Positions 5,943-10,835 of a stretch of DNA of 38,579 bases are shown piece after piece. The translations under genes and the position numbers were made by a program. The stretch is from a virus: positions 1 through 38,579 of IMG/VR virus record IMGVR_UViG_3300043119_000129. One strand, given 5' to 3'. Below the pieces are notes generated by a model. It ran no database searches. It was not told the DNA's origin and worked only from the letters and a program-made list of their open reading frames with translations. Within the stretch, counting starts at the first letter, position 1; the number at the start of each line of letters is the position of its first letter.

Positions 5943-6119
5943 TTACTCACCTTCACCAATCAGATAACCAGCTAAACGATTAAGCGTGTCGATCTTGGGG
6001 TTTTCTTCCTTGCCGTCCCTTATGCGGGTAACGGTGTTGACATGCAGACCAGTGCGCTCCGCAACTACCTTGGGCCTTCTATCTAGCAAGGCCTGTCTAA
6101 TCCATGCAATTTCGATCAT
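5943..6119 (-). CDS. Small HTH transcriptional regulator (Cro/XRE-like), 58 aa
   Basis: The protein contains a clear HTH: KVVAERTGLHVNTVTRIRDG at about residues 17-36, followed by KIDTLNRLAGYL, typical of XRE/Cro proteins. The ATG is preceded by AAGGAG eight bases upstream. It is the first gene of the leftward replication operon and faces the rightward recombination operon across about 117 bases, the classical position of an early switch regulator. It is as small as lambda Cro and lacks a separate effector domain. Binding to the TTTACA/TGTAAA dyad at 6153-6178 is an inference. Confidence 0.75.
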   Translation of the reverse strand: MIEIAWIRQALLDRRPKVVAERTGLHVNTVTRIRDGKEENPKIDTLNRLAGYLIGEGE

Positions 6120-6236
6120 TAGCTATACTCCTTTTTAATGTTATTTTTCTCCTTTACATATCAAAATTTGGCTGTAAAGACATTTCTACGCACTAACTGG
6201 ATAGTCCGAATTGTGCTGAAACGAAAGGAGCCTTCA
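6120..6236. promoter_or_regulatory. Divergent control region with TTTACA-N14-TGTAAA dyad
   Basis: This spacer separates the divergently transcribed HTH gene and recombination operon. It contains an inverted pair TTTACA (6153-6158) and TGTAAA (6173-6178), with half-sites 20 bp apart centre to centre and an AT-rich core. Two AAGGAG-like sequences face left and GAAAGGAG faces right at the two start codons. Promoters must lie here, but I could not pick convincing -35/-10 pairs by eye. Confidence 0.5.
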
Positions 6237-6914
6237 ATGGCTATTAATCTAAAGAAGACCGGAGGTCTAACCGCCAATGGTGTCAAGCTGCTTGTATATG
6301 GTCAGGCTGGCGCTGGTAAGACATCTCTTATCCGCACACTGCCGAACCCTGTGGTTCTGTCGGCGGAAGGTGGGCTGTTGTCCATCCAAGATGCTGACCT
6401 TGCCTATATTGAAATTAAGAACATGGAAGATTTGCGCGAGGCGTATGCCTGGGCCAAGGACAGCGAAGAAGCCGCTGGCTTTGAAAGCGTTGCACTCGAC
6501 AGCATCAGTGAAGTGGCCGAGGTTGTCCTTCAACATGAACTGCGCACCAACAAGGATGGACGCGCTGCTTATGGCGAACTTAACACCGTTATGCAGGAAC
6601 TGATCCGTGCGTTCCGTGATTTGCCAAACAAGCATGTCTACATGAGCGCCAAGCTGGAGAAATCCACCGACGAGATGGGCAAGTTGCTTTATAATCCATC
6701 AATGCCGGGAAAGTCGTTGACGCAGGGTCTGCCCTACTTCTTCGACGAAGTCTTGGCTCTGCGTGTGGAACGCGATGCGGATGGCAATGCCCAACGTGCC
6801 ATTATGTGCGACAGCGATGGTTTATGGTTGGCTAAGGATCGCTCCGGCAAGTTGGCGTCATGGGAGTCCCCTGACCTTGGTGAGATCATTCGCAAGATTG
6901 GGGGTGTGTCGTGA
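6237..6914 (+). CDS. Sak4-like RecA-fold ATPase (AAA_24), probable single-strand annealing recombinase, 225 aa
   Basis: The protein has Walker A GQAGAGKT at residues 22-29 and Walker B ESVALDS near 83-89, with IRTLPNPVVLSAEGG between them. This arrangement and the length of about 225 residues fit the AAA_24/Sak4 group, short RecA relatives that promote strand annealing with a phage SSB. The SSB-like DUF669 gene three ORFs downstream supports this. The ATG at 6237 follows GAAAGGAGCCTTCA, a good ribosome-binding site; the open frame extends 33 codons upstream into the control region without one. It is the first gene of the rightward early operon. Confidence 0.75.
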   Translation: MAINLKKTGGLTANGVKLLVYGQAGAGKTSLIRTLPNPVVLSAEGGLLSIQDADLAYIEIKNMEDLREAYAWAKDSEEAAGFESVALDSISEVAEVVLQHELRTNKDGRAAYGELNTVMQELIRAFRDLPNKHVYMSAKLEKSTDEMGKLLYNPSMPGKSLTQGLPYFFDEVLALRVERDADGNAQRAIMCDSDGLWLAKDRSGKLASWESPDLGEIIRKIGGVS

Positions 6915-7297
6915 CGCTAACTCCAATTGAACATGAAAAATTAACCTGCCGAGCGTGGAATGTTTTGCAAAACAATGATCTGGGAAAATATAATGTTGGC
7001 GTAAATTTGGAAGCTATTTCTTCCATGACAGATGACATGTTTTTAGCACTAGAAAATTGTGGCCGCAAAACTCTCAAAGAAGTTGAAAATTTGTTAGCGA
7101 GTTATGGGAAAAAGTTTACCGACGATTTTGTTGAAGCTGATTGGGCCACAGAACTATGGGCCGATGCATTAATGGCTCATGGAATGTGGGTAAAATCCAA
7201 AACTCTTCGCAGAAAAGGACCCAATATAAATGATATTGCGGCAATTAAATTGCTTCGCCTTCGCTTTGAGCAAATGATGAACGGAGAAGCGCCATGA
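6911..7297 (+). CDS. RNA polymerase alpha-CTD-like protein, 128 aa
   Basis: Residues 8-70 align by eye with the C-terminal domain of the RNA polymerase alpha subunit: HEKLTCRAWNVLQNNDL, then FLALENCGRKTLKEVENLLA. Mapped on E. coli alpha, R265, N268, G296, K298 and E302 correspond to R14, N17, G51, K53 and E57, while S299 is T54 and C269 is V18. These residues contact UP-element DNA. The last 58 residues (VEADWATELWADALMAHG onward) are not recognised. The start is GTG inside the stop of the Sak4-like gene (GTGA), and the stop overlaps the next gene. The gene looks more AT-rich than its neighbours, suggesting later acquisition. It may affect host or phage promoters; other HhH functions are possible. 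Confidence 0.65.
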   Translation: MTLTPIEHEKLTCRAWNVLQNNDLGKYNVGVNLEAISSMTDDMFLALENCGRKTLKEVENLLASYGKKFTDDFVEADWATELWADALMAHGMWVKSKTLRRKGPNINDIAAIKLLRLRFEQMMNGEAP

Positions 7298-7671
7298 TGA
7301 ACATTTACCAAGATTGGTTAGCCGCCAAGGCCGAGGAAGCTGAGGCGACATCCAGACGCCGTGAGATTGAGGATCAGATGGTTGCGCAGTTTAACGTCCC
7401 ATCCACCCTCGACAAGACGGCCAACTTTGAAGCCGACGGCTACAAGGTCAAGATCGAAGGCCGCATCAATCGCAAGATCAACAGCGAGAAGCTGCAAGAG
7501 ATTGCGGTGGAGCATGGGTTGATGGCGCATCTAGAATGCCTGTTCCGGTGGAAGCCGGAGATTAATGCGGCAGTCTGGAAGTCAACCGACCCAGCAATCA
7601 CTACCCCACTACTGGACGCAATTACCTCAACACCAGGGCGTCCATCATTCACTATCGTTAAAAAGGATTAA
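7294..7671 (+). CDS. Conserved phage protein next to recombination genes (DUF7173-like), 125 aa
   Basis: The N-terminal 35 residues are a likely coiled-coil (LAAKAEEAEATSRRREIEDQM); the rest contains GYKVKIEGRINRKINSEKL and a conserved-looking FRWKPEINAAVWK and GRPSFTI. I recall this pattern from small proteins found beside Sak4, Erf or SSB genes in many phages (possibly DUF7173, recalled rather than checked). No enzymatic motif is visible. It overlaps the alpha-CTD-like gene by 4 bases and precedes the SSB-like gene by 4 bases. A role in recombination or nuclease control is inferred from neighbours only. Confidence 0.65.
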   Translation: MMNIYQDWLAAKAEEAEATSRRREIEDQMVAQFNVPSTLDKTANFEADGYKVKIEGRINRKINSEKLQEIAVEHGLMAHLECLFRWKPEINAAVWKSTDPAITTPLLDAITSTPGRPSFTIVKKD

Positions 7672-7675
7672 TCAC

Positions 7676-8161
7676 ATGGCATTTTTAGGTGAAACATTTT
7701 CGACAGACAGCCTTCCTGTTTCGGATCGTTCGTATGATCTGATCCCAGAGGGCTGGTACAACGCCACCATTACCAAGGCGGAACTTAACAATACCAAGGC
7801 TGGCACAGGTCAAAAGATTGACATGCGCTATGACATCACTGGTCCGACGCAGCAGGGCCGTGTGGTTTTTGGCACAGTCAATGTCCGCAACCAGAGCGAA
7901 CGGGCCGAGGCGATTGGTCGCCAGCAACTTGGTGAGATCATGCGGGCTGTGGGCTTGGCTAAAATCCAAGACACTGACGAACTGGTCGGCGGTAGCATCT
8001 GCATCCGCGTCAAGATTAAGCCAGCCGAAAATGGTTATGATGCCCGTAATGAAGTTAGCGGGTTCAAGTCAGCATCAGGCGCATTGCCACAGGTCGCAGC
8101 ATCAGCTTCTCCAGAGCCTACCGCATCTGTCGGCGGCGCAAAGCCACCTTGGGCTAAGTAA
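7676..8161 (+). CDS. DUF669 family single-stranded DNA-binding-like protein, 161 aa
   Basis: The protein shows the DUF669 layout: IPEGWYNATITKAELNNTKAGTGQKIDMRYDI near the start, then RVVFGTVNVRN and a C-terminal Pro/Ala-rich linker ending in KPPWAK, similar to the flexible tails of SSB proteins. DUF669 proteins are found with Sak4 and Erf-type recombinases and are thought to act as phage SSBs. I chose the ATG at 7676 because AAGGA lies upstream and the longer open frame runs inside the preceding gene. A stem-loop follows the stop. Confidence 0.78.
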   Translation: MAFLGETFSTDSLPVSDRSYDLIPEGWYNATITKAELNNTKAGTGQKIDMRYDITGPTQQGRVVFGTVNVRNQSERAEAIGRQQLGEIMRAVGLAKIQDTDELVGGSICIRVKIKPAENGYDARNEVSGFKSASGALPQVAASASPEPTASVGGAKPPWAK

Positions 8162-8168
8162 ACAAAAA

Positions 8169-8194
8169 CCCCCGCTCTATCACTAGGGCGGGGG
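8169..8194 (+). terminator. GC-rich stem-loop between SSB-like and nuclease genes
   Basis: CCCCCGCTCT (8169-8178) can pair with AGGGCGGGGG (8185-8194), a 10-bp stem with one G-T pair and a 6-base loop. On the plus strand it is followed by aagttt rather than a long T-run, so it may be a weak terminator or an mRNA 3-prime end that lowers expression of the downstream nuclease relative to the SSB-like protein. An A-run on the left side makes leftward termination equally possible. Confidence 0.5.
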
Positions 8195-8220
8195 AAGTTT
8201 GTAGGAAAGGAGATAACACA

Positions 8221-9231
8221 ATGAGCAAGTTGCCCGACCCAGTTAATACCATCGCAACGATGATAGATCAATACCATGCAAGCAAGAAGTCTAGGCCGCG
8301 TCCGCACATGGGCGTCAGCCTCTTGGGACACCATTGCGACAGGTGGCTTTGGATTAACTTCCGCTGGGCAGTGGTCGAGGATTTCGATGGTCGCATCCTG
8401 CGCCTGTTCCGTCGTGGACACAGCGAGGAAGACACCATCATCCGTGACCTTCGCAACATTGGTATCGACATTCGCTCCAGCCAGAGGCGCGTAGACTTTG
8501 GCAACCATGTAAGCGGCAGTCTTGACGGCGTGATCGAGAAAGGCGTCCCAGAGGCCCCCAAGGCGCGTCATGTGGCCGAGTTTAAGACGCACTCGAAAAA
8601 ATCATTTGATGACATGGTGAAGAACGGCGTGGAGAAATCCAAGCCCATGCACTTTATCCAGATGCAAGTTTATATGCACGGGACCAACATTAACCGTGCG
8701 CTCTATCTGGCGGTCTGCAAGGACGATGACCGCATCTATACCGAGCGTGTGAAATACGACCAAAAGGTGGCCGAGGACGCGATTATACGCGGCAAACGGA
8801 TCGCCATGTCAGATCGTATGCCTGAGCCGTGCAGTGCCGACCCTAGCTGGTATCAGTGCAAGTTCTGTCCCGCACACAGCTTCTGCCACAAGCAGGAGCC
8901 GACCAAGCGGATCAATTGCCGCACCTGTGCGCATAGCACTGCAATGGCGGACTCTACATTCCGTTGTGAGCGTCATGAAGCCGACGCCATCCCAGAGGAT
9001 TTCCAGCACGAAGGCTGCGATGACCACATCCTGCATCCAGACATGGTGCATTGGCCTATGGAAGGCTCAGACGATGGTCACAGCGTCAAGTGGAAGATCG
9101 GCGACAAGTGGATCGTGAATGGCAAGGGCGGCTACAAGAGCCGCGAGATACTCGCCAACGCAGAGGCGCTGGATGATCAGGTCGTTCTGTCGATTAAGGC
9201 GATGTTCCCTGATGCGGAGGTGGTGGGCTGA
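8221..9231 (+). CDS. Cas4/RecB-like PD-(D/E)XK exonuclease with probable Fe-S cluster, 336 aa
   Basis: The nuclease motifs are GSLDG (D102), AEFKTH (E120, K122) and a Q-x3-Y helix (Q147-MQVY), as in RecB/Cas4 nucleases. Cysteines C39 (HHCDRW) and C213, C216 and C222 (C-x2-C-P-x4-C) have the AddB/Cas4 spacing that binds a 4Fe-4S cluster. An extra C-terminal part carries a second cysteine set (C233, C236, C249, C266 with nearby histidines), suggesting a zinc site not present in minimal Cas4. It overlaps the SF2 helicase by one base (TGATG), so nuclease and helicase are probably made together and may act jointly in end resection. No cas genes or CRISPR array are present. Confidence 0.85.
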   Translation: MSKLPDPVNTIATMIDQYHASKKSRPRPHMGVSLLGHHCDRWLWINFRWAVVEDFDGRILRLFRRGHSEEDTIIRDLRNIGIDIRSSQRRVDFGNHVSGSLDGVIEKGVPEAPKARHVAEFKTHSKKSFDDMVKNGVEKSKPMHFIQMQVYMHGTNINRALYLAVCKDDDRIYTERVKYDQKVAEDAIIRGKRIAMSDRMPEPCSADPSWYQCKFCPAHSFCHKQEPTKRINCRTCAHSTAMADSTFRCERHEADAIPEDFQHEGCDDHILHPDMVHWPMEGSDDGHSVKWKIGDKWIVNGKGGYKSREILANAEALDDQVVLSIKAMFPDAEVVG

Positions 9232-10835
9232 TGCTGCGACCATACCAACAACGCGCCATCGATGATCTATACAAGTGGATGGGCAAAAACGAAGGCAACC
9301 CATGCTTGGTACTGCCTACAGGATCAGGCAAGAGTCATATTGTTGCGGCATTTTGTAAGAATGCTGTGCAGAATTGGCCTGACACTAAAATTATGATGCT
9401 GACCCATGTAAAGGAATTGATCGAACAGAACGCCGAGAAGATGCGACAGCATTGGCCGGGTGCGCCTATGGGCATCTATTCGGCTGGGATGCGCAGGAAG
9501 CAATTGGGTGAGCCAATCACCTTCGCTGGTATTCAGTCGATCCACAGCAAGGCCAGCCGTGTAGGCCACATCGACATTTGCATCATCGATGAGTGCCACT
9601 TGGTCAACCATAAGGCGATTGGCATGTACCGCGCATTTCTGGATGCGTTACTGGTTATCAATCCATCCATGCGAGTGGTCGGTCTTACGGCAACGCCATA
9701 TCGTCTGGGGCATGGGCTGATTACGGATAAGCCAGCCATCTTTGATGATTTGCTCGACCCAGTGACCATTCCAGAACTGATTGAGAAGGGATTCCTCGCC
9801 CCGCTTAGTTCCAAGGTCACCAAGACCAATTACGATCTGTCAGGCGTCCACAAGCGCGGCGGTGAGTTCATTGAGAGCGAACTGCAAGCTGCTGTCAATA
9901 CCGACGAGAATAACGACAGCGTCATCAGGGAAGTGATTTCCTTGGCAGGGGATCGCAAGTCATGGCTGTTCTTCTGCACTGGCGTCCACCATGCCCACGC
10001 CATAGCTGAATCGCTCAGGCGCGAGGGCATCAGTGCGGCCTGTGTGACAGGGGAAACGCCAAAGGAGGAACGGGAAAAGATACTGGCTGACTTTAAGGAT
10101 GGCCGGATACAGGCGCTGACCAACGCCAACGTGCTTACGACGGGTTTTGACGCGCCAAACATCGATCTGATTGCGATGCTGCGCCCCACTATGAGCGCCA
10201 GCCTGTATGTCCAGATGGCTGGTCGCGGCATGAGGCTGAAGGACCACACCGACCATTGCCTGGTGCTTGACTTCGCTGGGGTTGTGCGGACACATGGGCC
10301 AATCATCGATGTTACCCCGCCACAGCGCAAGGGTGAGGATGGGCGAGGGGCGGGTGAGGCTCCGGTCAAGGTCTGCGACAACTGTGACGAACTGGTCGCC
10401 ATCAGTGCCAAGGAATGTCCGGCTTGCGGGATGGCGTTTCCTGAGCCTGAGAAGGCTGTTCTGAAGCTGCACAACGATGACATTATGGGTGTATCTGGCA
10501 CAGAGATGGTGGTCACTGATTGGCTGTGGCGCAAGCACACCAGCAAAACCAGTGGCAAAGATATGCTCTGCGTGTCATATTATGGCGAGTTGACTGATCC
10601 GAGTGTGACTGAATATTTGCCTGTGACGCATGAGGGATACGCCGGGCAAAAGGCCATAACGCAGTTGGTCAAGATAGCGCAAAGCGCAGGGGCGACATTT
10701 GATGGTGTAAGTTTGCTTGAGGATTGGGCGGAGCGCCTGAACGCCGCACATCCACCGATTGTGATTAGCTATAAGCGCGACGGTAAATATCATAGGGTTT
10801 TAAAAAGGGAATGGAATAATGAAGCGTTTGCCTAA
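9231..10835 (+). CDS. SF2 DEAD/DEAH-type helicase with zinc ribbon, 534 aa
   Basis: All main SF2 motifs are visible: LRPYQQRAI at the start, Walker A PTGSGKS at 29-35, DECH at 120-123, LTATP near 152-156, TGFDAPNID near 304-312 and QMAGRGMR at 328-335. Between 382 and 399 are two C-x2-C pairs (VCDNCDEL and ECPACG), a zinc ribbon. The last 110 residues (WLWRKHTSKTSGKDML onward) may form an OB-like domain. The ATG overlaps the nuclease stop as TGATG. Phages commonly carry such helicases beside PD-(D/E)XK nucleases for replication restart or recombination; the exact substrate cannot be read from sequence. Confidence 0.88.
   Translation: MLRPYQQRAIDDLYKWMGKNEGNPCLVLPTGSGKSHIVAAFCKNAVQNWPDTKIMMLTHVKELIEQNAEKMRQHWPGAPMGIYSAGMRRKQLGEPITFAGIQSIHSKASRVGHIDICIIDECHLVNHKAIGMYRAFLDALLVINPSMRVVGLTATPYRLGHGLITDKPAIFDDLLDPVTIPELIEKGFLAPLSSKVTKTNYDLSGVHKRGGEFIESELQAAVNTDENNDSVIREVISLAGDRKSWLFFCTGVHHAHAIAESLRREGISAACVTGETPKEEREKILADFKDGRIQALTNANVLTTGFDAPNIDLIAMLRPTMSASLYVQMAGRGMRLKDHTDHCLVLDFAGVVRTHGPIIDVTPPQRKGEDGRGAGEAPVKVCDNCDELVAISAKECPACGMAFPEPEKAVLKLHNDDIMGVSGTEMVVTDWLWRKHTSKTSGKDMLCVSYYGELTDPSVTEYLPVTHEGYAGQKAITQLVKIAQSAGATFDGVSLLEDWAERLNAAHPPIVISYKRDGKYHRVLKREWNNEAFA

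Follow-up and report, generated by a model that had tools for sequence, protein, structure and literature searches.

Why does a phage encode, among its early recombination genes, a small protein resembling the DNA-binding domain of the RNA polymerase alpha subunit, and how far does that resemblance go? The window analysed here is the whole virus record IMGVR_UViG_3300043119_000129 (38,579 bases). An initial annotation read the N-terminal part of a 128-aa protein in this window as a complete, stand-alone alpha C-terminal domain (αCTD) that could compete with or redirect host polymerase. The features on which the argument depends are as follows.

6240..6914, plus strand: upstream neighbour, Sak4-like ssDNA annealing protein / AAA_24 (phrog_124)
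6911..7297, plus strand: gene of the 128-aa αCTD-domain protein, running from a GTG start to a TGA stop and overlapping each neighbour by 4 bases
6920..7126, plus strand: αCTD-homologous domain, residues 4-72 (profiles, shuffles, fold, residue alignment)
7127..7294, plus strand: C-terminal tail, residues 73-128, a predicted helical hairpin (76-101 and 106-123)
7294..7671, plus strand: downstream neighbour, DUF7173 (phrog_2480), function unassigned
7670..10835, plus strand: remaining early operon, with a DUF669 SSB-like protein, a Cas4-like exonuclease and a DEAD/ResIII helicase

The GTG start (6911-6913) overlaps the TGA of the Sak4-like gene (6912-6914) by 4 bases, and the TGA stop (7295-7297) overlaps the ATG of the DUF7173 gene (7294-7296) by a further 4 bases, so that the gene is translationally coupled to both neighbours. 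As the neighbours comprise Sak4, the DUF669/SSB-like protein, the Cas4-like exonuclease, the helicase and a VRR-NUC nuclease, also downstream, we consider this to be an early recombination operon. Both overlaps and the neighbour families agree with the placement originally proposed, as does the base composition: the gene is more AT-rich (GC 39.8%, GC3 33%) than the flanking early genes (GC 52-56%, GC3 53-69%). A small XRE-like ORF (5950-6119, minus strand; its sequence starts MIEIAWIRQALLDRRPKVVAERTGLHVNTVTRIRDGKEE) is divergent from Sak4. A promoter-like match inside the αCTD gene (6965-6994) was rejected as chance level (3 found versus 3.6 expected).

Judged by its sequence, the region from residue 4 to 72 is a divergent but genuine copy of the RNA polymerase αCTD. 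RNA_pol_A_CTD (PF03118) was the sole family matched up to an E-value of 10 among the 24,736 of Pfam (20.1 bits, E 5.4e-4); this score is below the gathering score of 23.8, and we therefore term the domain αCTD-like and homologous rather than a formal Pfam member. All six NCBIfam matches were to rpoA models, and 14 of the 16 matches in a phmmer search of PDB sequences were alpha subunits, each of them weak (E 0.3-1.8). We built a viral αCTD profile from 52 distinct domains, drawn from 62 viral loci. It scored the domain at 29.9 bits and the whole protein at 30.8 bits (best of 5,000 shuffles, 9.5). Searched against all loci in six-frame translation (25,281 segments), it recovered the window ORF with an E-value of 3.3e-7 and had no match in loci L002-L153. 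Homology is thus significant when the profile includes viral αCTDs. Identity to the E. coli RpoA αCTD is approximately 29-31%. The claim that the domain is complete stands as regards homology but has to accommodate an insertion of approximately 6-8 residues after helix 1, similar to one in the viral protein L226. The competing possibility raised in the initial annotation, a better match to a different helix-hairpin-helix (HhH) family, was rejected because RNA_pol_A_CTD stands alone in Pfam and no HhH family was returned. The protein begins at the αCTD; the alpha N-terminal dimerisation/assembly domain is absent and no other Pfam or NCBIfam family was matched. A PHROGs search returned nothing for this protein, nor for the E. 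coli αCTD, and a PADLOC defence/anti-defence search gave no match.

Fold prediction pointed in the same direction. An AlphaFold model from a six-sequence alignment placed helices at residues 13-21, 33-37, 41-45 and 52-64, with a mean pLDDT of 73 overall and mostly 74-89 across the domain blocks. All 50 matches listed from a PDB fold search were polymerase alpha chains (probability 0.95-1.00), and the model reached a TM of approximately 0.6-0.78 against isolated αCTD structures. Five of the six aligned sequences were other αCTD proteins and the model from the single sequence was poor and uninformative (pLDDT 43), so the αCTD fold assignment is supportive rather than independent.

We compared the domain with an E. 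coli αCTD reference sequence identical to PDB 1lb2, using the 265, 261 and 287 determinants, the established definitions of the positions of DNA, sigma and activator contact. The 265 determinant (L262, R265, N268, C269, G296, K298, S299, E302) is largely kept, with six identities (L11=L262, R14=R265, N17=N268, G51=G296, K53=K298, E57=E302) and two substitutions (S299 to T, at T54; C269 to V, at V18). The five identities first listed (R265, N268, G296, K298, E302), with Thr at S299, were correctly counted. R265 and N268 are conserved in 52/52 viral domains, but the scan patterns themselves included VR..NCLK and so partly predetermined this count, which we therefore did not use as independent evidence. 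The 261 determinant, which faces sigma region 4, is not retained: D259/E261 correspond to H8/K10, positions that are acidic in most viral αCTDs. On the activator face, V287, E288 and R317 are replaced by D, M and D. The DNA face is thus retained and the protein-protein faces are lost. Residues 1-72 carry an acidic excess (11 D+E versus 8 K+R), which counts against a DNA-binding explanation.

The αCTD is targeted by host activators and by phage enzymes (PMC2988021), and the protein could accordingly be a decoy that binds and titrates host activators or enzymes that dock there. T285 and the acidic residue at 286 resemble the αCTD in this part of the activator face, but the replacements at 287, 288 and 317 leave the classical CRP-contact face poorly retained, and we regard a decoy as quite improbable.

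The tail is modelled with moderate to low confidence (pLDDT 57-70 in the AlphaFold model with alignment) and matched nothing in Pfam or the PDB. Kinship with the tails of the L154 or L173 families was rejected (-2 bits or nothing, under shuffles), and sigma-70 region 4 was found neither in the tail nor elsewhere in the protein, which is therefore not a member of the sigma-fusion group described below. With no detectable tail homologue and no alpha N-terminal domain, the description of a stand-alone αCTD with an unrelated tail is upheld.

The same cannot be said of uniqueness, as dozens of phage proteins contain αCTD domains, some of which are already annotated accordingly. The 62 viral loci with αCTD domains have many architectures. 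We checked ten proteins of the set with Pfam; arrangements in the set, together with two cultured-phage examples, include the following.

L173: αCTD followed by a tail of 60-70 residues
L182: 140-aa protein with a C-terminal αCTD
L201 and L223: sigma-70 region 4 followed by αCTD
L210: Cro/C1 HTH, then sigma-70 region 4, then αCTD
L197: HTH_17, sigma region 4 and αCTD
L186: αCTD followed by sigma region 4
Bacillus phage Goe8 gp005 (cultured phage): 210 aa, annotated 'RNA polymerase subunit alpha'
Microbacterium phage Mazun gp26 (cultured phage): 141 aa, annotated 'DNA binding protein'

'Phage' records that are bacterial contigs with rpoA (Salmonella, Acinetobacter) were left out of the counts. 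Single chains joining sigma-70 region 4 and αCTD were seen in L201, L210, L217-L219, L223, L225, L227 and L231, in L197, L198, L200 and L202, and in L185-L190 and L193-L195; the combination was established by Pfam in L186, L197, L201, L210 and L223 and by sequence likeness in the others. Such proteins could read -35 and UP elements with a single polypeptide. The best BFVD fold matches of the 128-aa protein were phage proteins of 111-135 aa named 'RNA polymerase, alpha subunit, C-terminal'. Like the stand-alone phage αCTD class, it is the product of a phage gene, has an αCTD and an extra helical segment, and lacks the alpha N-terminal domain; it joins an annotated but functionally unstudied group of phage proteins. 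We found no functional study of phage αCTD-domain proteins in the open-access literature searched (5.39 million papers).

The main rival to competition with the host αCTD for its sites is recruitment, in which the tail would bind host RNA polymerase, sigma or a phage factor and the phage-owned αCTD would pull polymerase to phage promoters, activating them. The single chains with sigma region 4 show viral proteins combining αCTD with polymerase-facing modules, and an αCTD with an extra helical region is common to several phage families (L173-L178, L154-L163). The tail considered here, however, shows no detectable kinship with sigma, other αCTD tails or any known family, and the sigma-contacting face of the domain is lost. 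We consider such a recruiter, although the chief rival, unlikely.

No close relative of the protein was found in the viral and genome contigs scanned with the protein itself, and tblastn in phages and plasmids gave only weak N-terminal matches to bacterial rpoA, in the plasmid collection. This lack of a close relative in the collections searched, together with the low GC of the gene, would fit a recently captured αCTD-derived insert, decaying or neutral and of no function to the phage. A clean ORF overlapping both neighbours by 4 bases and the specific retention of DNA-contact residues at approximately 30% identity argue otherwise, and this is the reading to which we give least credence.

The slot between Sak4 and DUF7173 is variable across approximately 140 related viral loci. 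It is often empty, so that Sak4 directly adjoins or overlaps DUF7173 (as in L004, L008 and L009), and is otherwise occupied by unrelated small ORFs. Weak similarity to the restriction-alleviation protein Lar and to a CI-type HTH is seen among the slot ORFs, whose starts and stops are often coupled. Among these loci only the window has an αCTD-like occupant. The slot (L002-L153 and the window) is hypervariable and likely an accessory or counter-defence slot, and the 128-aa gene is an accessory early gene. This bears on whether the protein aids recombination instead, its helix-hairpin-helix core binding DNA without promoter specificity and assisting the Sak4/exonuclease/SSB set. Coupling within a recombination operon is what such an accessory would show, and the HhH core of the αCTD is a general DNA-binding fold. 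Against this, most relatives with the same Sak4-DUF7173-exonuclease set have an empty slot, and the set therefore works without the protein; moreover, αCTD was the only HhH-type family matched and residues of the R265/K298 type are retained. A recombination accessory thus seems improbable, if less so than a decoy.

A second αCTD gene type occurs in the same lineage. The PF03118 search covered 124 viral records, and among those fetched via Sak4/DUF7173 one had an αCTD protein (G008, IMGVR_UViG_3300042382_000112; 151 aa, 36-37 bits), encoded after VRR-NUC and outside the Sak4-DUF7173 slot. This protein matched nine loci, L155-L163, one of which is the same record; L155-L158 have the operon type of the window, with neighbours 54-72% identical. 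αCTD genes therefore lie in at least two different places in one phage lineage, for which two acquisitions would be the simplest account. Members of the αCTD-like family L154-L163 are 141-153 aa in length and stand beside VRR-NUC in L154-L158. Part of the family has K in place of N268 and G-P-K in place of G-R-K, which suggests a changed DNA contact. A search of bacterial genomes for the L154 family as a host prophage found none. In L176 (3262-4411), of the L173-L178 family, the αCTD gene follows genes that appear by eye to be VRR-NUC-like and DUF3310-like; VRR-NUC ahead of an αCTD gene in both this and the L154 family is possibly a recurring neighbourhood. Of the deposited phage records, MW202867.1 has the Sak4 nearest to that of the window (86.5%), and in it a gene annotated 'sigma-70' directly follows the helicase (7321-7743; L237 9507-9929); no such gene was recognised in the window.

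Overall, the αCTD observation is confirmed and its earlier interpretation is partly supported. The reading that we tentatively favour, with somewhat less than even confidence, is that the 128-aa protein modulates early transcription as an accessory DNA-binding factor, competing with the host αCTD for UP-like sites. We place its action outside the polymerase, given that it lacks an alpha N-terminal domain with which to enter the enzyme and has lost the residues that face sigma, and we tie viral αCTDs to promoters because related viral proteins fuse them to sigma-70 region 4. The retained minor-groove residues would allow the domain to bind A+T-rich, UP-like DNA upstream of promoters; isolated B. 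subtilis αCTD alone binds promoter DNA (spoVG) in gel shifts (PMC2801614). The helical tail might pair two copies or hold a partner. Through competition with the host αCTD for UP-like sites, host UP-dependent promoters would be damped or the phage's own early promoter tuned. A 52-base intergenic stretch between the minus-strand XRE-type ORF and Sak4 (6124-6175; 75% A+T) is a possible target of the protein in its own genome. A bolder reading, which we think rather unlikely, is that a free phage αCTD, having lost the sigma face and kept the UP face, competitively inhibits host transcription that depends on UP elements, as at rRNA and other strong promoters. It would then represent a new means of taking over host polymerase, and one among several independent acquisitions of the αCTD by phages.

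Known phage strategies against the host αCTD are to modify it, to cleave it or to re-aim it. A phage-made free αCTD, if true, would add displacement as a route to the takeover of host polymerase. αCTD modules are spread across many phage protein plans, among them single chains that also contain sigma region 4. This wider class, and those chains in particular, is more surprising than the 128-aa protein.

The domain shares with E. coli RpoA 249-329 (PF03118) four helices in order and the DNA-contact residues. It differs in belonging to a 128-aa protein without the alpha N-terminal domain, in its insertion after helix 1 and unrelated 56-residue helical tail, and in its changes at C269 (V), S299 (T), D259/E261 (H/K) and the CRP-contact positions 287, 288 and 317. 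The UniProt/BFVD proteins A0A6J5NZM6 (111 aa), A0A6J5L490 (131 aa) and A0A6J5M7I6 (135 aa) share its size class, phage origin and αCTD but are only 14-30% identical to it. The L154 family likewise has an αCTD followed by a helical tail and, in L154-L158, the same early operon type (exonuclease, helicase, VRR-NUC), whereas its gene lies after VRR-NUC, its tail is unrelated, N268 is K in part of it and S299 is A. Proteins of the L173-L178 family (149-163 aa) also have the αCTD first, followed by approximately 60-70 residues, but their αCTD resembles bacterial RpoA far more closely (67-68% with the E. coli protein) and their tail is unrelated to that of the 128-aa protein. The fusions of L201, L210, L223, L197 and L186 share the phage use of an αCTD module; their chains also contain sigma-70 region 4 and, in some cases, an HTH of Cro/C1 or excisionase type, neither of which is present in the 128-aa protein. 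Finally, T4 Alt and ModA ADP-ribosylate R265 of alpha (PMC2988021), a residue modified because of its importance to the αCTD, and the phiKMV-like Rac cleaves alpha (PMC7552054). These share with the 128-aa protein a phage intervention at αCTD function; however, Alt/ModA and Rac are enzymes that act on host alpha, whereas the 128-aa protein, without an enzyme domain, is itself the αCTD.
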